A stretch of DNA of 64,000 nucleotides from Oscillospiraceae bacterium (GTDB lineage Bacteria > Bacillota > Clostridia > Oscillospirales > Oscillospiraceae): NCBI GenBank assembly GCA_902795345.1, contig CADBKO010000028.1, positions 1 to 64,000 on the forward strand. The letters are read 5' to 3'. The notes under the pieces were generated by a model. The model made no database searches, was not told where the DNA came from, and saw nothing but the letters and a program-made list of their open reading frames with translations. Every line of letters starts with the position of its first letter. The stretch's first letter is position 1. This document shows positions 17,267 to 52,685 of the stretch, piece by piece. The position numbers and the translations under genes were made by a program.

Positions 17267-18151
17267 ATGACCAGAACGCAGCTCAATTGTTTTTCCGCCG
17301 TCCTGCGCACCCTCAGCTTCACCAAGGCCTCCAATCTGCTCTATACTTCCCAGCCCGCCATCAGCAAGAATATTTCCAAGCTGGAGGAGGAACTGGGCTG
17401 CCGCCTCTTTGAGCGCTCCGGCAGCAGCCTGACGGTGACGGAGGCGGGCTGGCTCCTCAATGATTTCCTGGAACAGTCCGAGCGGGAATTTCAGCGGACG
17501 TTGGAGGAGATCCACCGGCTGAGCTCCAATGCGGGGCGGGTTCTGAAGATCGGCTGCCCCGAGACCTGGAATCCCCATTATCCCACGGAGCTGCTGCGTT
17601 CCCTTCTGGCGGACCATCCGGAGGTGCAGTACACCGTGGAGTCCTACCGCCTGTCGGAGCTGCTGAGCCGTCTCAGCAGCGGGACCTTCGACATCATCAT
17701 CACCCACGAGTTCTATGCCGCCTCCCCCCTCGGCCCCAGCTCCTGCCCCGTGGCCGCCACCGGCTGCGGCATGCTCTATTCCCCGGAGCAGTTCCCAGGC
17801 GTCACCTCCCCGGCGGAACTGAAGGAGCTGCCCTTCCTGGTGTATGACGACGATGTGAGCAAGCTCAGCAAGCGGTTCAGCGGCGTCATCCGGGAATGCT
17901 GCGCGGAGTTCGGCTTCCGTCCCCGCTTCCGCAGCACCAACCAGGCCTCCGCCGCCCTTTTCGATACCTCCAGCGGCAAGGGCGTCATGTTCTTCAGCGA
18001 TTGGGACAGCCCTGTCACGAACCCCATCTACGGCTACCTCTCCCTGAACCGGCAGTTGCCGGTGAACATCATCTACTATCCGGACAAGCTCACCGCGGAA
18101 GCGAACATCCTGCTGAAAGAAGCCAAGAAAAACCGCCAGAAAGCGGAGTGA
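17267..18151 (+). CDS. LysR-family transcriptional regulator
   Basis: The 294-residue protein has the N-terminal LysR winged helix-turn-helix (residues about 3-62, FTKASNLLYTSQPAISKNIS) and a C-terminal effector-binding domain with the periplasmic-binding-protein fold (about 90-290). It is transcribed divergently from the carboxylesterase, the classic arrangement for a regulator controlling its neighbour and itself. The effector is unknown. Confidence 0.9.
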   Translation: MTRTQLNCFSAVLRTLSFTKASNLLYTSQPAISKNISKLEEELGCRLFERSGSSLTVTEAGWLLNDFLEQSEREFQRTLEEIHRLSSNAGRVLKIGCPETWNPHYPTELLRSLLADHPEVQYTVESYRLSELLSRLSSGTFDIIITHEFYAASPLGPSSCPVAATGCGMLYSPEQFPGVTSPAELKELPFLVYDDDVSKLSKRFSGVIRECCAEFGFRPRFRSTNQASAALFDTSSGKGVMFFSDWDSPVTNPIYGYLSLNRQLPVNIIYYPDKLTAEANILLKEAKKNRQKAE

Positions 18152-18333: not shown

Positions 18334-18361
18334 TTGACTTTTCCGAAAGCCAGAGTAAAAT
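18334..18361 (+). promoter_or_regulatory. Promoter of the DUF3870 operon
   Basis: TTGACT (18334-18339) and TAAAAT (18356-18361) are separated by 16 bp. The predicted start near 18368 would give a leader of about 140 nt ending at the DUF3870 start codon. Confidence 0.65.
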
Positions 18362-18364
18362 AAA

Positions 18365-18480
18365 GGGCGAAATTGAGATCGTTCCCCACGGAGCAATCGC
18401 CAAAAGCGAATTGCGGATCCGTCCGGAAGCCGGTAAAAGTTTGAACGGGCATCGCCCGGAATGGCTTTTGCCTTTTTTTT
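18365..18480 (+). promoter_or_regulatory. Structured leader with intrinsic terminator, candidate riboswitch
   Basis: The leader folds by eye into three parts. A short hairpin GGGCGA...TCG..CCC lies at 18365-18386. A long hairpin pairs ACGGA-GCAAT-CGC (18388-18400) with GCG-ATTGC-TCCGT (18406-18422). A terminator pairs GGTAAAAG (18432-18439) with CTTTTGCC (18465-18472) around an inner CGGGC/GCCCG stem and is followed by eight T. Only about 10 bp separate the T-run from the ribosome binding site region, so DUF3870 expression from the upstream promoter must pass this terminator. It does not match any riboswitch class I recognise. Confidence 0.55.
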
Positions 18481-18508
18481 CGCCATTCAAAGAGAGGGGA
18501 GGGAGACG

Positions 18509-18835
18509 ATGCGCGAACGGAATACGGTCCTGCTGTCGGGCTACGCCAAACTTCCGACAAACATAACCGCTGAAATGGTTTATGAAATGCTGGCAGTTGC
18601 GGTGCTGTTCGACAGACGAAGCGGCATCATCCTTGAAGCAGAGGCGTCCATGGTGACGAACATCGCCAGAAAGTTCATCGCCGGGCTGCTGGTCGGCTAC
18701 AACCTGAACGACGGGCCCGATGAACTGATGGAAGATTTCGAGACCTATTACCACGGCAACGCGAAACGCGCTCTGGAGACCGCGATCCGGATGATATTCA
18801 GCAAGTACCAGGAATACATCGCTGAGCAGCAATAA
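18509..18835 (+). CDS. DUF3870 domain protein
   Basis: A 108-residue protein of the uncharacterised DUF3870 family, recognised by LLSGYAKLPTNITAEMVYEM, the VTNIARKFIAGLLVGYNLND region and the AIRMIFSKYQEYI end. It is a small soluble protein, with no membrane segment. The ATG at 18509 follows GAGGGGAGGGAG. The gene opens an operon with two cytidylate-kinase-like proteins and a symporter fusion. Function unknown. Confidence 0.8.
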   Translation: MRERNTVLLSGYAKLPTNITAEMVYEMLAVAVLFDRRSGIILEAEASMVTNIARKFIAGLLVGYNLNDGPDELMEDFETYYHGNAKRALETAIRMIFSKYQEYIAEQQ

Positions 18836-18903
18836 ACAAAAACAATAAACAACCAACCGTTGTGCCCGGGGCGTCTGACAACAGACGCATCGACCGCGGC
18901 ATG

Positions 18904-18961
18904 AGCCGGTATATCAGAGAGAAGGGAGTCCCTTCCCATCCCCGATGTACCGGCTTTTTTT
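18904..18961 (+). terminator. Terminator/attenuator before the first cytidylate-kinase-like gene
   Basis: AGCCGGTA (18904-18911) pairs perfectly with TACCGGCT (18948-18955), followed by seven T; an inner AAGGG/CCCTT hairpin sits in the loop. A further hairpin GCGTCTG-ACAA-CAGACGC lies just upstream at 18871-18888. The ribosome binding site AAGGAGGG begins 7 bp after the T-run. No promoter fits between, so expression of the next gene needs read-through. That suggests regulated attenuation rather than a plain gene end. Confidence 0.65.
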
Positions 18962-18981
18962 GTGCTGAAGGAGGGAATGAA

Positions 18982-19629
18982 TTGAAGCTGGATAAGACCA
19001 AAATGTCCATCACGGTGGAAAGCGAGCTTTGCGCCGGCGGGGAGGAGGTGGCGGAGGCCCTGGCGGACATGCTGAAGCTGAAATGCCATTCCGATGAGAT
19101 CACCGGTATCGCATCCAAGCTGAGCGGCATTTCCCGGAAGCTGCTTCGCCGTTACGAGGCAAAGCGGGTGCGCCAGGCCTATGACCTCTCCGCGGAGAGC
19201 GAGGATGCCCTGCATATCCCGGCGGAGAAATACTTCCTCGCCGCGCAGGTGGCCGCCTGCCGCACGCTGGCGGACGAAGGCCCCTGCGTACTCCTGGACC
19301 ACCACTCCAATGCAGCCCTGGCGGATCGGGAGAACCATGTGGGCATTTTCATCCATGGGGACCGGGAGGACCGGCTGAACAATTATGCAAAGAAGCATCT
19401 GCAGACCCCCTACCGGGCCCGGCGGGACTTCAACCGGGAGGATCGGGAGCGTACAAGCTGCTTCCGGGCCCTTTCCCGGGACTGGGGCAAGGCTTCCAAC
19501 TATTGCCTGACGGTCAATTCCTCCCGCGCGTCTGCTCAGACCCTGGCGCAAAACATCGTGCGTTATCTGGAGACCGTCACCCAGGAGGAGCTTGTCCACC
19601 CTATCTCGGCGCAGGAGCGCAGCGCCTAA
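18982..19629 (+). CDS. Cytidylate-kinase-like protein, copy 1
   Basis: A 215-residue member of the cytidylate-kinase-like family. The start is TTG at 18982 behind AAGGAGGG, supported by alignment with copy 2 (M-K-L-D-K-T-K-M against M-K-L-N-K-N-T-M). The usual nucleotide loop of the family (GSGGREIA type) reads CAGGEEVA, and the usual VIVGRCAD-type motif reads VLLDHHSN, so classical kinase activity is doubtful. The WGKASNYCLTVNSS end keeps the family pattern. It shares AYDL, AAQ-AAC and GPCVLLD blocks with the other two copies in this operon. A nucleotide-sensing role is inference. Confidence 0.75.
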   Translation: MKLDKTKMSITVESELCAGGEEVAEALADMLKLKCHSDEITGIASKLSGISRKLLRRYEAKRVRQAYDLSAESEDALHIPAEKYFLAAQVAACRTLADEGPCVLLDHHSNAALADRENHVGIFIHGDREDRLNNYAKKHLQTPYRARRDFNREDRERTSCFRALSRDWGKASNYCLTVNSSRASAQTLAQNIVRYLETVTQEELVHPISAQERSA

Positions 19630-19748
19630 TAAAACGCGCCAAGATCATCAGCCTGGAGGAATACCGCAGGAACCTGCGATCCGGGCAGCAAGAACAGAAT
19701 AGATCCTGAAATCAACATATTACTTATAAGAAAGATGAGGAAACGACC

Positions 19749-20390
19749 ATGAAGCTGAACAAAAACACGATGCACATCACCATCGAGACCGAAGCCGGCA
19801 GCAACGGAGAGGCTGTCGCCCGCTCCCTGTCTGAAATGCTGAATATCCCCTGCTATGGGGAAGAGATCCTGGATAAAGCCGCGGAGCTCAGCGGGATCCC
19901 CGCTTCTCAGCTCCATCGCTATGACGGGCGCAGCGTCCGGGCCGCCTATGACCTGCTGGCCGACGACAAGACGCCCCTGAAAATGCGTCCTGCCTCCGAC
20001 TTCGTGGCCGCGCAGATCGCCGCCTGCCAGGCCCTGGCGGCTCAGGGCGCCTGCATCCTGGTGGACCGTCATTCCGGCCAGGCCCTGGAGGGCAGCGCGG
20101 ATCATGTCCGCATCTTCATCCACGCCGGTTTTGACGACCGTGCCGCGAACCTGGCCGCCAAGGAAGGAAAGACCGTCGAGGAAGCGAAGCACATGCTGAA
20201 GAAGCTGGATCGCAGCTACCGCAGCTATTACCGCGGCAGCGACCGGGGCTGGGGCGAAGCGGATCGTTACGATCTGAGCCTCAATGCCTCCGACGCGGAT
20301 GTGAACGCGCTGACGGCCAATGTGATGGAGTTCCTTTCCGCCATGTGCGGCGAAATCAAGCAGAACGTGGGGCAGCGCAAGGCAGTCTGA
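19749..20390 (+). CDS. Cytidylate-kinase-like protein, copy 2
   Basis: A 213-residue paralogue of the previous protein and of the C-terminal domain of the following symporter. The nucleotide-loop region reads GSNGEAVA. The GACILVDRHSG segment replaces the usual glycine-arginine motif. The lid/acceptor region LDRSYRSYYRGSDRGWGEAD and YDLSLNAS match the family well, making this the least divergent copy. The ATG at 19749 follows ATGAGGAAACGACC. It lies 119 bp after copy 1 with no terminator between, so they are probably co-transcribed. Confidence 0.8.
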   Translation: MKLNKNTMHITIETEAGSNGEAVARSLSEMLNIPCYGEEILDKAAELSGIPASQLHRYDGRSVRAAYDLLADDKTPLKMRPASDFVAAQIAACQALAAQGACILVDRHSGQALEGSADHVRIFIHAGFDDRAANLAAKEGKTVEEAKHMLKKLDRSYRSYYRGSDRGWGEADRYDLSLNASDADVNALTANVMEFLSAMCGEIKQNVGQRKAV

Positions 20391-20409
20391 CAGGCAGAAA
20401 AGCTGCGGA

Positions 20410-20433
20410 CCGGGGAGCGTGACCGCTCCCCGG
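20410..20433 (+). other. Strong intergenic hairpin without T-run
   Basis: CCGGGGAGCG-TGAC-CGCTCCCCGG is a perfect 10-bp stem between copy 2 and the symporter gene. There is no T-tract, so it is more likely an mRNA-stabilising or processing element than a terminator. Confidence 0.5.
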
Positions 20434-20461
20434 AAGCATCAAGAAATGGGATGATAACATC

Positions 20462-22495
20462 ATGAATCTCAATACAGCCCAGGCCATCGGCCTGCTGATC
20501 AGCATACTGGGCATCGCGGTCCTCGCCATCGTCACGGGGATGCGCAAGCAAGCAAAGGGAAGCGGAAACTCCGCACCCGTCGTCGCCGGCCTCATCATGG
20601 GGACGCTGGTGGGCGGCTCCTCCACTGTGGGAACGGCGCAGCTTGCCTATAACTACGGCTTGTCCGCCTGGTGGTTCACCCTGGGCGGGGGCCTTGCCTG
20701 CCTCGTGCTGGCGCTGCTGTTCGCAGGCCCCTGGCGGCACACCGGGGCGATGACGCTCATCGCCATCATCAGCAAGGAATTCGGGCCCCGCGTCGGCCTC
20801 ACGGCCTCCCTCCTCAGCAGCGTGGGTACGTTTATCAATATCATTTCGCAGCTCATTGCCGGAACGGCGGTCATCGCCGTGGTGGCGCCCAGCCTGGGCC
20901 TGCTCCCGGCCCTGCTGATCACGGCGGCCTTTATGGCGCTCTATGTCATCGGCGGCGGCATCCGCGGCGCAGGCATGGTGGGGATCCTGAAGCTGGCGCT
21001 GCTGTATGTTTCCATGATCTGCTGCGGCATCCTCGCGCTGCATCTCAGCGGCGGCTTTTCCGGCTTCACCGCCATGGTGCAGGGGATCGAGAATCCGGAA
21101 GGCGTCCATTTCGGAAGCCTCTTCGCCCGGGGCCTGGGCAAGGATGGCGGCGCGTGCCTCTCCCTGATCCTGGGCGTGCTGACCACCCAGACCTATGCAC
21201 AGGCGGTCATGTCCGCCCGGACTGACCGGCAGGCGCGCATCGGCGCCCTGGTCAGCGCCGTGATGATTCCGCCCATCGGCGCGGGCGGCATCCTGGTGGG
21301 CCTTTTCATGCGCGCCCATTTCCCCGGCCTGGCGGCCAAGACAGCTCTGACCGCCTTTGCGACGGAGTATCTGCCCCCGCTGCTCAGCGGCGTTCTCCTC
21401 GGGACCCTGTTCATCGCCGTCGTCGGCACCGGCGCGGGCCTGGCCATGGGCATCTCCACCATCATCCGCCGGGACATCATCCAGCGCTTTTCCGACCGCA
21501 TCGCCGATCCCAGGGTCAATGAGGTCCTTTCCAAGCTGGTGATCCTGCTGGTGCTGGGCCTGGGCGTGGTCCTCTCCTGCGGCTCCCTGGGGGATACGAT
21601 CCTCTCCTTCGCCTTCATGTCCATGGGCCTGCGGGGCGCGGTAGTCTTTATCCCCATGCTGTGCGCCCTGTGGCTGCCGGGGCGGGTGAACCGGAATTTT
21701 GCGATGGCTGCCGTGATCGCGGGCCCCGCAGCGGTGCTGCTTTTCGGCACGAAGCTGAGCCTGCCCGGCGGTATCGACCCGCTGTTCGCCGGTGTCGCGG
21801 CTGCGGCGCTGCTGTGCGTCGCCGGGGCAGTGGTGGGCAACCGCCGGAAAGAGATCCACGTGGAGCACGACCTGCCGAAGAGCGGGGAAGTGCGCGTGAT
21901 CTCCGTGGAAAGCGAGCTCTATGCCCAGGGCAAAGCTCTGGCGTCGGCCCTTGGGGAAATGCTGGGCGTTCCCTGCTATGATGAAGCGATCCTCAGTACT
22001 GCATCGGAGCTGAGCCATATCCCGGAGCAGGTCCTTCGCCGGTATGACGGGAAAAGCGTATTCGCCGCCTACGACCTCGCCGCGAGGGATACTTCCTCCA
22101 TGCGTCTGCCCACCACCGGCGAGATGATCTCCGCGCAGTCCGCCGCCTGCAGCGAGCTGGCAAAGAAGGGCCCCTGCGTACTAGTGGACCATTTCTGCTC
22201 CGTCGGGGCTAAGGAGACGCCCAGCGTGTCCGTATTCGTCCATGCCGATTTTGAGACCCGCGCCGATCGTCTGTCCAAGGAAAAGGGGATCGGCCCCGCC
22301 GCGGCGCGGCGGCAGCTCCGGCGGCTGGACCGGGCCCGCAGCAGGTATTATCGGATCGGAAACCGGAAATGGGGTCAGGCAAAAGCCTATACCCTCACGG
22401 TGGATGCCAGCTCCACGGAGCCGGAAGTCCTCGCGGAGGGCATCGCCCAGTGGCTCACCGGCCGGGAGGCGGAGAAGAACCGCCGCGCGGGCTGA
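20462..22495 (+). CDS. Sodium:solute symporter fused to a cytidylate-kinase-like domain
   Basis: The 677-residue protein has about 13 predicted membrane helices in residues 1-460 with the sodium:solute symporter pattern (MGTLVGGSSTVGTAQLAYNY). A basic linker (VVGNRRKEIHVEHD) leads to a soluble cytidylate-kinase-like domain at about 477-677. That domain has YAQGKALA at the nucleotide loop, RRYDGKSVFAAYDLAAR, GPCVLVDHFCS and RRLDRARSRYYRIGNRKWGQ, paralogous to the two upstream genes. A transporter with a tethered nucleotide-binding-like domain suggests gating or sensing by a nucleotide. The transported solute is unknown. The start ATG at 20462 has only a weak ribosome binding site. Confidence 0.82.
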   Translation: MNLNTAQAIGLLISILGIAVLAIVTGMRKQAKGSGNSAPVVAGLIMGTLVGGSSTVGTAQLAYNYGLSAWWFTLGGGLACLVLALLFAGPWRHTGAMTLIAIISKEFGPRVGLTASLLSSVGTFINIISQLIAGTAVIAVVAPSLGLLPALLITAAFMALYVIGGGIRGAGMVGILKLALLYVSMICCGILALHLSGGFSGFTAMVQGIENPEGVHFGSLFARGLGKDGGACLSLILGVLTTQTYAQAVMSARTDRQARIGALVSAVMIPPIGAGGILVGLFMRAHFPGLAAKTALTAFATEYLPPLLSGVLLGTLFIAVVGTGAGLAMGISTIIRRDIIQRFSDRIADPRVNEVLSKLVILLVLGLGVVLSCGSLGDTILSFAFMSMGLRGAVVFIPMLCALWLPGRVNRNFAMAAVIAGPAAVLLFGTKLSLPGGIDPLFAGVAAAALLCVAGAVVGNRRKEIHVEHDLPKSGEVRVISVESELYAQGKALASALGEMLGVPCYDEAILSTASELSHIPEQVLRRYDGKSVFAAYDLAARDTSSMRLPTTGEMISAQSAACSELAKKGPCVLVDHFCSVGAKETPSVSVFVHADFETRADRLSKEKGIGPAAARRQLRRLDRARSRYYRIGNRKWGQAKAYTLTVDASSTEPEVLAEGIAQWLTGREAEKNRRAG

Positions 22496-22524
22496 GAAGG
22501 CTGCCCGATGAAAACATAGTTAAC

Positions 22525-22558
22525 AGGGGCTGCAGCGGAATGAACCGCAGCAGCCCCT
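22525..22558. terminator. Terminator between converging operons
   Basis: AGGGGCTGC-AGCGG pairs with CCGC-AGCAGCCCCT. The plus-side tail is TGCTTCTCTT. It lies between the symporter gene and the end of carB-dapF. Confidence 0.65.
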
Positions 22559-22622
22559 GCTTCTCTTGGATCGGATCGCTTGCCCTTTTGCGGGGCGGCG
22601 AAGCGTGTTTTATGCCGGAGAC

Positions 22623-25600
22623 TCAGTATTCAAATTCGCCTTCAAAGACCTCCACGGCGCTGCCGGCGAGGAGGATGCGCTCCCCGTCGTAATTCACCGT
22701 CAGGTCGCCGCCCAGCACCTTCACCGTCACGTCGGCGCCCTTGGGGCAGAACCCCTTTTCCACGGCGGCCACCACTGCCGCGCAGGCGCCGGTGCCGCAG
22801 GCCAGCGTTTCGCCGCTGCCCCGCTCCCACACCCGCATCCGCAGGGTGGTGGGGGTGACGACCCGGACGAACTCCGTGTTGATCCGCTCCGGGAACAGGG
22901 GATCATGCTCGAATTTCGGGCCGATCTGCGGCAGGTCCAGGCCGTCGATGCCGTCGCAGAAGACCACGCAATGGGGGTTGCCCACACTCACGCAGGTGAC
23001 CTTGTATTCCTGCCCGGCCACGGTCATGGGCCAGTCCACCATCTTCTCGGCGCTGGCGGCGGCGGGTATCTTCTCGGGCCGCAGCTCCGCCCTGCCCATG
23101 TCCACGGAAACGCTGCTGACCTTCCCGTCCCGCAGGAAGAGCCGCATGGGGTAAATGCCGCTTTCCGTCTCGATGCGCAGGTATTCGCTGCGGACATAGC
23201 CCTTGTCGTAGAGGTATTTCGCCACGCAGCGGATGTTGTTGCCTGCCATCCGGCCCTCGCTGCCGTCCCGATTGAAGGAGTGCATCTTCGCGTCGGCCTT
23301 GTAGGAGCGCTCGATGAGCACGATGCTGTCGGAGCCGATGCCGTAGTGGGGGGCGCAGAGGCTGACGCAGAGGGATTCCGGACAGGTGATGGAGGCGTCG
23401 AAGTTCTCGATAAAGATGCCGTCGTTGCCGCAGGACTGCATTTTGGCAAAGCGGACCTTCTGCTTCCAGGGGCGCATGGCGTTGATGTCCACCAGCTCCG
23501 TGTTGTCCGGGCGGAAGCGGCTCTCGATGATCTCCGCCAGGGCATTGGCCGTGTCGGTGCTGGTGAGGCAGGGGATACCCAGCTGCATGGCCCGCCGGTG
23601 GAGGGCGATGAAGTCCCCCATGGTGGCGTCCTTCACCGCGCCGGTGTAGATGATATAGCTGAGGTGGCCGCTCTCCATGAGGGCCATGATCTCCCCGCTC
23701 TCCGTGGCGTTGGGCAGGCTTTCCACGGGGATGCCCATGCGCCCGATGGCCTCCGCCGTCCCGACGGTGGCATAGAGCTTGATGCCCAGGTCATAGAAGC
23801 GCTTGGCCAGAGCGGTGATGTCCGGGTAGTCGGCGTCCTCCACGCTGAGGAGCACCCCGGCGTCGCTGTTGTCCGCAGGCAGCTTGAAGCCCGCCGCCGT
23901 CAGGCCCTTGTAAAGGGCCTCCGCCTTGGTCTTGCCGATGCCCAGCACTTCGCCGGTGGATTTCATCTCCGGGCCAAGGATGGAGTTTGCGTCGCTGAGC
24001 TTCTCGAAGGAGAAGACCGGCACCTTCACCGCGCAGTAGGGCGGCGTGCGGTACAGCCCCGTGCCGCAGCCCAGGTCCGCCAGGTTCGCCCCCAGCATGA
24101 CCCGGGCGGCCAGGTCCACCATGGGCACTCCGGTCACCTTGGAGATATAAGGCACCGTCCGGGAGGCCCGGGGGTTCACCTCAATGACATAGAGCTCGTT
24201 TTCGTAAATGAGGTACTGGATGTTCACCAGGCCCCGGGTGCCCAGGGCCAGGGCCAGCTTTTCCGAACAGTCGCAGATCTTCTGGAGGAAGCGGTCCGTC
24301 AGGTTGTAGGGGGGATAGACGGCGATGGAGTCGCCGGAGTGGATGCCCGCCCGCTCGATATGCTCCATGACGCCGGGGATCAGCACGTCCTTCCCGTCGG
24401 AGATCACGTCCACCTCCAGCTCGATGCCGGGCATATACTTGTCCACCAGCACCGGGTTTTCCACGCCCCCGGCCAGGATGGTCTCCATATACTGCCGGGT
24501 GTGCGCCTCCGTGCGGGAGATGGTCATGTTCTGGCCGCCGATGACGTAGGAAGGCCGCAGCAGCACGGGATAACCCAGGTCGCGCCCCGCCTGCACCGCC
24601 TCCTCGATGGTGTTCACGCCCCGGCCGCTGGGCCGCCGGATGTGGAACTGCTCCAGCAGGGCGTCGAACCGGGCCCGGTCCTCGGCGATGTCGATGCTCT
24701 CGGCGCTGGTGCCCAGGATGGGGATGCCCGCCTTATCCAGGAAAGCGGTGAGCTTGATGGCCGTCTGGCCGCCGAAGGCCACCACCACCCCCACGGGCTT
24801 CTCCACCCGGATGATGCCCATGACGTCCTCCGGCGTCAAGGGCTCGAAGTAGAGCCGGTCCGCCGTGTCGTAGTCCGTGGATACGGTCTCCGGGTTGTTG
24901 TTCACGATCACCACGTCGTAGCCCATTTCCCGCAGGGTCCAGACGCAGTGGACGGAGGAGTAGTCGAATTCGATGCCCTGGCCGATGCGGATGGGGCCGG
25001 AGCCCAGCACCATCACCACCGGCTTCCCGTCCCGGGGAAAGCTGCGGGCTTCGCAGTCGCCGTCCGCCTCGGAATAGAAATAGGGCTTGTCGGTGCCGAA
25101 TACAGAGGCGCAGGTCTTGACGATCTGATAGGTGAGCTTGCTTTCCGGCAGCTCCTTCGCGCCGCTGAGACGGCGGATGGCAGAGTCCGGGTAGCCCAGC
25201 TCCTTGGCCTTTTTGTAGAGCGCGGGGGTGAGGCCGGAGGCCAGCTCCGCCTCCAGGTCCACCAGGTTTTGCAGCTTTTTCAGGAAATAGGGGTCGATCA
25301 TGGTGATGCGGTAGATCTCCTCTATGGAGACGCCGCTTTTCAGAGCTTCAAAGACGGTGAAGATCCGCCGGTCGTCCTGATCCGCCAGCCGCTCCATGAC
25401 GCTGCGGCTGTCCAGGGGCGGGGCGTTGAGGGTGTCCAGGCCGATCTCCGCACCCCGCACCGCCTTCATCATGGCGGCCTCAAAGGTGGGGGCGATGGAC
25501 ATGACTTCGCCGGTGGCCTTCATCTGGGTGCCCAGCTTCCGGCTGGAGCCGGAGAACTTGTCGAAGGGCCACTTGGGGAATTTCACCACGATGTAGTGCA

Positions 25601-26648
25601 CGTCGGGCTCGAAGCCCTGGAGGGAAGCGCCGGTCTCCTCGTTTTTGATCTCCGAAAGCAGGTAGCCCAGGGCCATCTTGGTGGTGATCTTGGCGATGGG
25701 GTAGCCCGTGGCCTTGCTGGCGAGAGCCGAGGAGCGGGAGACGCGGGGGTTGACTTCGATGACGGCGTATTCGCTGCCGTCGGGCTTCAGGGAAAACTGG
25801 CAGTTGCAGCCGCCGATGATGCCGATGGCCGCCACGATGTCCAGGGCCGCCTGGCGCAGCATATCGAATTCCCGCTGGGTGAGGGTCAGGGCTGGGGCCG
25901 CCACGATGCTGTCCCCGGTGTGGACGCCCACGGGGTCCACGTTCTCCATGCTGCAAACGCTGACGGCGTTGCCCTCCCGGTCCCGCATGGTCTCAAATTC
26001 GATCTCCTTCCAGCCGGAGATGCACTTTTCCACCAGGATCTGGGTGATGGGGGAGAGGTCCAGGCCGGTGCGGGCGATGGTGCGCAGCTCCTCCTCGTCC
26101 GCCGCGATGCCGCCGCCGGTGCCCCCCAGGGTGAAGGCGGGGCGGACGATGACGGGGTAGCCGATCTCTCCTGCGACGCGCAGGGCCGTTTCCAGGTCGC
26201 AGGCGATGTCGGAGGGGACCACCGGCTGGCCGATGGCCTTCATGGTGTCCCGGAACAGTTCCCGGTCCTCCGCCTTGTCGATGCCTTCGATATCGGTGCC
26301 CAGGAGCCGGACCCCCAGCTCGTCCAGCACTCCATCCCGCTTGAGCTGCATGGCCAGGGTGAGGCCCGTCTGGCCCCCCAGGCCCGCCAGCAGCCCGTCG
26401 GGCTTCTCCTTCTCCAGGATGCGCCGAAGGGTCTCCTCGTTCAGGGGCTCCAGATAGATCTCGTCGGCCATGGCCTTGTCGGTCATGATGGTGGCGGGAT
26501 TGGAGTTGACCAGAACGGTGTTGATCCCCTCCTGCCGCAGCACCCGGCAGGCCTGGGTGCCCGCATAGTCGAATTCGGCGGCCTGCCCGATCACGATGGG
26601 GCCGGAGCCGATCACCAGTACCTTGCGTATGCTTTCATCTTTGGGCAT
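22623..26648 (-). CDS. carB: Carbamoyl-phosphate synthase large subunit fused to diaminopimelate epimerase
   Basis: One 1341-residue frame carries two enzymes. Residues 1 to about 1060 are CarB: two ATP-grasp halves (VLVIGSGPIVIGQAAEFDYA and VMVLGSGPIRIGQGIEFDYS) and the C-terminal MGS-like allosteric domain. Residues about 1064-1341 are DapF: MQSCGNDGIFIENF, the catalytic cysteines in AGNNIRCVAKY (near 1141) and LACGTGACAAV (near 1284), and SVGNPHCVVF. CarB makes carbamoyl phosphate for arginine and pyrimidines; DapF interconverts LL- and meso-diaminopimelate. The ATG at 26648 follows GGGAGGAATACTT. The gene follows argF, and carA is not in the window. No stop or frameshift separates the halves. 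Confidence 0.93.
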   Translation of the reverse strand: MPKDESIRKVLVIGSGPIVIGQAAEFDYAGTQACRVLRQEGINTVLVNSNPATIMTDKAMADEIYLEPLNEETLRRILEKEKPDGLLAGLGGQTGLTLAMQLKRDGVLDELGVRLLGTDIEGIDKAEDRELFRDTMKAIGQPVVPSDIACDLETALRVAGEIGYPVIVRPAFTLGGTGGGIAADEEELRTIARTGLDLSPITQILVEKCISGWKEIEFETMRDREGNAVSVCSMENVDPVGVHTGDSIVAAPALTLTQREFDMLRQAALDIVAAIGIIGGCNCQFSLKPDGSEYAVIEVNPRVSRSSALASKATGYPIAKITTKMALGYLLSEIKNEETGASLQGFEPDVHYIVVKFPKWPFDKFSGSSRKLGTQMKATGEVMSIAPTFEAAMMKAVRGAEIGLDTLNAPPLDSRSVMERLADQDDRRIFTVFEALKSGVSIEEIYRITMIDPYFLKKLQNLVDLEAELASGLTPALYKKAKELGYPDSAIRRLSGAKELPESKLTYQIVKTCASVFGTDKPYFYSEADGDCEARSFPRDGKPVVMVLGSGPIRIGQGIEFDYSSVHCVWTLREMGYDVVIVNNNPETVSTDYDTADRLYFEPLTPEDVMGIIRVEKPVGVVVAFGGQTAIKLTAFLDKAGIPILGTSAESIDIAEDRARFDALLEQFHIRRPSGRGVNTIEEAVQAGRDLGYPVLLRPSYVIGGQNMTISRTEAHTRQYMETILAGGVENPVLVDKYMPGIELEVDVISDGKDVLIPGVMEHIERAGIHSGDSIAVYPPYNLTDRFLQKICDCSEKLALALGTRGLVNIQYLIYENELYVIEVNPRASRTVPYISKVTGVPMVDLAARVMLGANLADLGCGTGLYRTPPYCAVKVPVFSFEKLSDANSILGPEMKSTGEVLGIGKTKAEALYKGLTAAGFKLPADNSDAGVLLSVEDADYPDITALAKRFYDLGIKLYATVGTAEAIGRMGIPVESLPNATESGEIMALMESGHLSYIIYTGAVKDATMGDFIALHRRAMQLGIPCLTSTDTANALAEIIESRFRPDNTELVDINAMRPWKQKVRFAKMQSCGNDGIFIENFDASITCPESLCVSLCAPHYGIGSDSIVLIERSYKADAKMHSFNRDGSEGRMAGNNIRCVAKYLYDKGYVRSEYLRIETESGIYPMRLFLRDGKVSSVSVDMGRAELRPEKIPAAASAEKMVDWPMTVAGQEYKVTCVSVGNPHCVVFCDGIDGLDLPQIGPKFEHDPLFPERINTEFVRVVTPTTLRMRVWERGSGETLACGTGACAAVVAAVEKGFCPKGADVTVKVLGGDLTVNYDGERILLAGSAVEVFEGEFEY

Positions 26649-26657
26649 AAGTATTCC

Positions 26658-26854
26658 TCCCGGAAAAGGGCTTGCATTGGGCCTCGTCGTCGCAAGCTCC
26701 ATATCCCTCGCCTCGACCCGGTCGGTCAAGGCTCGCTCATTTCGCTGCTCCTCCTCCCCAAATCGCGGCCACCGCAGCGGCCGCGATTTGGAAAGGACGT
26801 TTCGCCGGAATCTTTCGGGCATTTGCGCTTGCGCGAATGTCCGTCATTCCGGCG
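26658..26854 (-). repeat. Palindrome-rich spacer between argF and carB-dapF
   Basis: Three inverted repeats lie in this spacer: GCTTGC/GCAAGC (26670-26697), CCAAATCGCGGCC/GGCCGCGATTTGG (26758-26791, perfect 13 bp) and CGCCGGAAT/ATTCCGGCG (26803-26854) with a nested GGGCATT/AATGTCC stem. None has a T-run. They may be a mobile intergenic repeat or mRNA-processing hairpins between the two genes. Confidence 0.5.
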
Positions 26855-52362: not shown

Positions 52363-52456
52363 ACAGGATAGGCGCAGCAAAAGGGCGCTGCGGCGCAAGC
52401 AGCGATCACGACATGACCAATTCCCCGTGGCCAGAGGCATTTCGAGGCCTCCGCGT

Positions 52457-52657
52457 CAAACGTGCGGCAGGTTTCCTGGCTCATGGATCAACGCTTGTCG
52501 GCCGCCTTCCCGGTATGGACCAGTGGCACAGCAAATGGCCGAAAACTCCCCAAATACAGTGACGGGATCGTACAGGATTCGCACCTGTTTCCCTTTTGAC
52601 CCGCGCAGCGAAAGAACGCTTGAACTCCGCTTCCGCCCGCAGGCACCGCAGTTTCCT
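52457..52657 (-). promoter_or_regulatory. Cobalamin riboswitch
   Basis: On the minus strand the aptamer begins near GCGGTGCC. It contains GGGAAACAGGTGCGAATCC, GATCCCGTCACTGTA and GTGCCACTGG, and ends in the B12 box GAGCCAGGAAACCTGCCG (52465-52482). Adenosylcobalamin binding should promote the downstream terminator and shut off the corrinoid importer. The divergent biosynthesis operon on the plus strand is not downstream of it. Confidence 0.92.
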
Positions 52658-52685
52658 ATTCACTTTTTATGCTCTATTCCAAGTA

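Follow-up and report, generated by a model that had tools for sequence, protein, structure and literature searches.

A covarying RNA element bracketing a DUF3870 gene in transporter operons of Oscillospiraceae, some with kinase-like domains

Introduction

What do three related kinase-like domains do in one operon of an Oscillospiraceae bacterium, where one of them is joined to the end of a sodium:solute symporter (SSS)? The operon lies in the window, a stretch of 64,000 nucleotides (positions 1 to 64,000 of contig CADBKO010000028.1, assembly GCA_902795345.1), which a previous sequence-only reading had described with the kinase-like (CK) domains as its main feature. Transporters can carry regulatory cytoplasmic domains, among them RCK/TrkA, CBS and USP. 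We followed the operon through related genomes and found that the centre of gravity of that reading was misplaced, the CK domains being an accessory to a system of RNA and DUF3870. The two RNA elements, at 18374-18434 and 18852-18910, had been missed. A structured RNA, in two copies that bracket the DUF3870 gene, appears to be the conserved heart of the system.

Results

Layout of the locus

The operon and its upstream flank carry the following features.

17267..18151 (+): LysR regulator upstream of the operon (Pfam)
18334..18361 (+): promoter TTGACT-N16-TAAAAT; the leaders of the other carriers keep its TTGAC hexamer
18374..18434 (+): RNA element 1, predicted extended irregular hairpin P0-P1-P2-P3; 71.6 bits with covariance model R1, covariation equalled in 0 of 500 shuffles
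18432..18480 (+): intrinsic terminator T1, whose 5′ arm shares GGU with P0 of element 1
18509..18835 (+): DUF3870 (PF12986), 108 aa; Pfam 80.8 bits, AF2 pLDDT 88
18852..18910 (+): RNA element 2, which has diverged more than any other copy and scores much lower than its orthologues
18903..18961 (+): intrinsic terminator T2; the P0 3′ strand of element 2 lies inside its 5′ arm
18982..19629 (+): CK1, free PF13189 paralogue, 215 aa, TTG start; PF13189 93 bits
19749..20390 (+): CK2, free PF13189 paralogue, 213 aa; PF13189 104 bits, AF2 pLDDT 85
20462..21886 (+): SSS domain of SSS-CK3; SSF (PF00474) 79.9 bits, match to residue 421
21887..22495 (+): CK3, PF13189 domain at the symporter C-terminus; PF13189 89 bits

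The genes for DUF3870, CK1, CK2 and SSS-CK3 span 18509-22495, and SSS-CK3 is a single 677-aa frame (20462-22495) with the SSF domain N-terminal to CK3. The three paralogous PF13189 domains, one fused to the symporter C-terminus, were thus borne out by Pfam, with gathering scores clearly exceeded (88-104 bits against 28 for PF13189, and 79.9 against 22.8 for SSF). CK1 most likely starts at the TTG at 18982, which stands behind a good Shine-Dalgarno sequence, rather than at 18862. The sequence-only reading had set the start of the operon at 18334, which coincides exactly with the -35 hexamer of the conserved promoter.

At its 3′ end the operon is convergent to a carB-dapF frame, in which the carbamoyl-phosphate synthase large subunit and diaminopimelate epimerase share one open frame of 1399 aa (22623-26822, - strand). 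The window also contains a lysine riboswitch (2715-2881, + strand) and a cobalamin riboswitch (52449-52660, - strand), both above the Rfam cut-off. The LysR gene has an orthologue upstream of the operon in one congener (88 %), and none adjoins the operon in the other carriers, so that it is probably outside the operon core; in the locus L075, a LysR of 30 % identity lies 3 kb downstream.

The operon is rare and conserved across genera

The full order DUF3870-CK1-CK2-SSS-CK3 is kept in six genomes, a seventh differs by the absence of CK1 only, and in an eighth the CK domain is joined to an unrelated, NCS2-like permease. Scanning of genome contigs with the CK alignment yielded five loci: L072, L073 and L074 with the complete operon, L075 with DUF3870, CK2 and SSS-CK3 (CK1 absent), and L076 with DUF3870 followed by the NCS2-like permease with its CK domain. 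A scan of 200 family genomes also gave scores for G624 and G755, for G580 (whose contig is that of L072) and for G098 (that of L076), and among 299 genomes of the phylum the operon was found in one, the window's own.

The fusion is therefore not a one-off with unconserved neighbours: of the seven genomes with the fusion operon, all (7/7) have CK2, SSS-CK3 and DUF3870 together, and 6/7 have CK1 as well. The system is rare yet conserved across genera, and the statement that no such system had been described holds in the literature searched. Fixed metabolic neighbours were considered as a clue to the substrate and dropped, because the flanks differ between carriers. In one genus only (L091, L092), the operon lies between two glycyl-radical enzymes.

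A covarying RNA lies on both sides of the DUF3870 gene

The leaders of the carriers align 3′ of the conserved TTGAC hexamer. On a plain MAFFT alignment, which was not fitted to any structure, a 15-pair structure had 94 % of its cells paired and six pairs changed on both sides, and 0/500 shuffles equalled this. In a wider set of 21 distinct rows, which includes the likely false match L091:11844 and whose alignment was fitted to the model and leans towards it, a 19-pair structure had 91 % of its cells paired, with 96 double-change cells vs 29 in shuffles. The first covariance model found, besides element 1, more copies between DUF3870 and the next gene, the NCS2 variant included. The second model recovered copies held out of training in L073, L091 and L074, and the window copy weakly.

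An intrinsic terminator stands directly 3′ of 20 of the 21 elements, and its 5′ arm starts within the 3′ GCCGG segment of the element (CUGG in L163 element 1). Element 1 of L075 has no terminator and sits by a Shine-Dalgarno sequence. Since bases of the P0 helix also build the terminator, folding of the element and formation of the terminator should compete. The conserved unpaired parts are CGUU, a CAAAA loop and AAGCCGG. Rfam searches with elements 1 and 2 and one orthologous leader gave no credible counterpart at gathering or permissive E-values; bglG-cis-reg (RF03530) reached 13.8 bits at best, vs a cut-off of 80. Plasmids held no match to the leader.

We then searched the 200 family genomes with the RNA model and no protein information. 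All matches at E<=1e-4 adjoin DUF3870 or, in L160, reach the end of the contig, immediately behind the orthologous LysR gene, and none was found elsewhere in the carrier genomes. This search added four genomes with no CK at the RNA-DUF3870 locus. G571 has the order element-DUF3870-element-NCS2-like permease, G647 has DUF3870-element-NCS2-like permease, and G655 and G720 have DUF3870-element-DUF1275 followed by an unfused SSS that is 66-67 % identical to that of the window; element 1 was detected in some, not every, of the four. Weak matches at E>=9e-4 in G587, G581, G738, G607 and G610 have no DUF3870 nearby and were treated as chance. The class sample, searched under strict filters, yielded no element.

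Because such units occur without any CK, the invariant core appears to be RNA-DUF3870-RNA-transporter, which makes the RNA element and the transporter the main partners of DUF3870; the kind of transporter and the CK vary. The simplest reading of the CKs is a gain in a single lineage, and their loss from an ancestral fusion is a less simple possibility. An unfused NCS2-like permease homologous to that of L076 (L111:13158-14501, - strand) lies near a DUF3870 gene (L111:9078-9494, - strand) inside a succinate/methylmalonyl-CoA pathway cluster, where the RNA element is absent.

DUF3870 has an alpha/beta model and no recognised RNA-binding domain

The AF2 model of DUF3870 is alpha/beta (pLDDT 88). 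Neither sequence nor fold gave a convincing relative in the PDB, and no known antiterminator fold was matched. Pfam gave DUF3870 alone, with no CAT or PRD domain and no recognised RNA-binding domain. In the SSS operons the protein is acidic, with a pI of about 5.0-5.4. No RNA element was found beside DUF3870 genes elsewhere in the class, indicating that DUF3870 is not always tied to it. In the literature searched we found no established function for DUF3870. A 2015 paper assigned a beta-rich domain of Bacteroides (3kog) to DUF3870 (PMC4387736); the profile of the DUF3870 proteins in this analysis (PF12986) does not match that 3kog domain. We dropped the toxin-like reading connected with it (PMC4387736), as 3kog was unmatched by the window's DUF3870 and by the profile, and the model is alpha/beta.

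PF13189 tails occur on several membrane protein families

By rough hydropathy, the last membrane segment of the SSS ends near residue 460 and is followed by a basic NRRK, which suggests that the CK tail is cytoplasmic. The segment GTGAGLxMGISTI is kept across five aligned orthologues, and the Ser-Thr of its GISTI part is a candidate for the Na2 site by comparison with PutP S340/T341. Unfused SSS relatives at 45-54 % identity have neither CK nor DUF3870 adjoining. In two species of one genus such relatives are followed by deoB and deoD, and on the basis of these shared operons a nucleoside-like solute may be put forward as a weak guess.

In long frames of the class, and in one of the window's own genome, PF13189 was found as a C-terminal tail on further membrane proteins, which as a set keep the ordinary PF13189 motifs.

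MATE: L130:4411-6408, L131:651-2663, L134:4334-6340, L136:2506-4554
NCS1 permease, adjoining a hydantoinase B gene: L132:4707-6836
CPA2 antiporter: L135:4395-6197
DUF6198 membrane proteins: L013:5909-7582, L133:4234-5538

Counting SSS and the NCS2-like permease, the tail occurs on six membrane families, and a regulatory domain fits this spread better than one enzyme step would. The tails resemble RCK/TrkA, CBS and USP in that one soluble domain type occurs on several unrelated carriers, among them a CPA2 antiporter, a kind of carrier that commonly bears RCK-type domains. They differ in being kinase-like in fold, and the literature searched held neither such a member nor a description of PF13189 tails on transporters.

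A model for control of the operon

We tentatively favour, at somewhat less than even confidence, the reading that the locus is an attenuation-controlled, self-contained solute-uptake module in which DUF3870 is the antiterminator, the transporter the sensor and the CK a non-catalytic regulatory tail. Transcription from the conserved promoter would meet element 1 and T1 before DUF3870, and then element 2 and T2 ahead of the CK and transporter genes. Each element would be stabilised or disrupted according to the supply of the transported solute. DUF3870, the product of the bracketed gene, would be the small antiterminator, and the transporter would be its membrane sensor, as BglF is for BglG. In one lineage the transporter would have gained the CK at its cytoplasmic end, as a regulatory tail that binds a ligand and with which free CK1 and CK2 could form mixed assemblies. 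The gate and the competing free homologues proposed in the sequence-only reading are hypothetical roles.

DUF3870 is the favoured candidate because the layout is the same as in bgl, with different parts. In E. coli, bglG lies between two terminators, and BglG acts at two mRNA sites, one before and one after the gene (PMC8836124); in both systems two RNA sites that overlap intrinsic terminators enclose the first gene, and a transporter gene follows (PMC8836124). Unlike BglG, SacY and LicT, the present system has no CAT/PRD domains and no PTS permease, and its RNA is a predicted 60-nt four-helix element, whereas that of bgl is a RAT hairpin. Against an antiterminator stand the acidity of DUF3870, its lack of an RNA-binding domain, the element-free DUF3870 genes elsewhere and element 1 of L075 with no terminator.

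The data fit a ligand-binding RNA about equally well. The element may be a riboswitch that directly binds the transported solute or its product, with DUF3870 and the transporter under its control; SSS and NCS2-like permeases would then carry one compound, and DUF3870 would be its enzyme or binding protein. We consider this joint reading quite possible, close behind the favoured one. The compact covarying fold with its conserved unpaired segments, coupled to a terminator, is consistent with it, as are the acidic DUF3870 and the presence of the same RNA on non-homologous transporters, a usual sign of a metabolite riboswitch. Like metabolite riboswitches, the element is a structured leader with a competing terminator before transporter genes. 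However, it has no Rfam match and every confident match is at DUF3870 alone, whereas riboswitches usually control unrelated genes too, and two copies bracketing the first gene are the layout of a self-made antiterminator.

The antiterminator reading thus stays favoured, its anatomy drawn from sequence and DUF3870-RNA binding putative. If it is right, control of the bgl kind evolved a second time with other components; a solute-binding RNA would instead define a new class of riboswitch and offer a way to the substrate of the transporter. The analysis adds a structured RNA with covariation that Rfam lacks, a role for DUF3870 that can be tested, and a kinase-fold tail that recurs on several transporter families unrelated to each other. 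It is a rather unlikely proposal, taken as a whole, that DUF3870 is the founder of a new RNA-binding antiterminator family, acting on a new element that brackets its own gene and reporting on Na+-symporter or NCS2-like transporters, to which one lineage added three pseudo-kinase domains, one of them transporter-tethered, as a sensing interface.

The CK domains keep the kinase fold and lack the family signature

CK1, CK2 and CK3 are mutually 38-40 % identical, and the motifs RY...V..AYDL, AAQ.AAC..LA and W-G reported to be common to them are real on the alignment. In a tree of 69 PF13189 domains all operon CKs form one clade (100/100) on a long branch, within which the NCS2-fused CK is the earliest branch and CK1, CK2 and CK3 are separate clades. 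The AF2 model of CK2 (pLDDT 85) matched best to 3fdi and 3hdt in the PDB (E about 1e-12 to 1e-11), then to CMP and shikimate kinases, and at fold level the matches also take in adenylate kinases. Both profile and fold thus agree with these solved PF13189 members, from which the CKs differ in lacking R14, the GR motif and the TG of the LID region and in the fusion of CK3 to a symporter.

We compared 21 operon-type CK domains with 48 other PF13189 domains. R14 is present in 0/21 vs 46/48. The claimed loss of the glycine-arginine motif stands for the glycine, as G106 is D, E or N in 21/21 and G in 48/48 of the others; the arginine (R107) survives in most CK2 and CK3, but all CK1 and the CK3 of the window have H in its place. 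R157, present in 48/48 others, has given way to Y in most CK2. In the LID region several residues (D154, R155) are kept, and R57, Y58 and A66 are newly invariant in the CKs. A canonical GSGGREIA loop had also been reported as lost; the loss of the family motif is conserved, but GSGGREIA is the consensus of PF13189 itself and no Walker A. On alignment with the genome's own CMP kinase, the operon CKs lack the Walker-A lysine (GxxGxGKS/T), and this lysine is already glycine (alanine in one) in four ordinary PF13189 proteins. Since it is missing across PF13189, catalysis was not clearly lost at the step to the operon CKs. Of the proposed repurposing from catalysis to sensing, the presence of this CK clade on an NCS2-like permease beside DUF3870 and the PF13189 tails on several other transporter families fit regulation or sensing, and the departure from catalysis is what the family-wide absence of the lysine calls into question. 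The CKs seem to have kept the kinase fold and lost the residue signature of the family, from which we infer a regulatory role.

It is improbable that the CKs are active kinases of an unusual type, which would trap the solute metabolically by phosphorylating it as it arrives at the inner face. The fold matches to CMP, shikimate and adenylate kinases, the persisting D154 and R155 and the SSS relatives beside deoB/deoD agree with such a role, but the Walker-A lysine is absent, R14 and G106 are lost (R107 also in CK1), the same tail is found on MATE and CPA2 carriers, for which no substrate of phosphorylation is apparent, and CK-less units exist. Decay of the CKs into gene copies with no present role is very improbable and was rejected on dN/dS: the CKs do evolve faster than SSS and DUF3870 and their loop residues vary, but dN/dS was 0.10 for CK1, 0.15 for CK2 and 0.17 for CK3 (vs 0.05 for SSS and 0.06 for DUF3870; Nei-Gojobori, one pair, L091 vs L092), three clades are each kept across genera, and R57, Y58 and A66 are invariant. 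These values indicate that the CK domains are under purifying selection.

Phages gave distant PF13189-like matches at most. In the window's genome, a single frame of 643 aa (L009:229-2160) joins a flavoprotein oxidoreductase-like domain to a CMP kinase that follows it.
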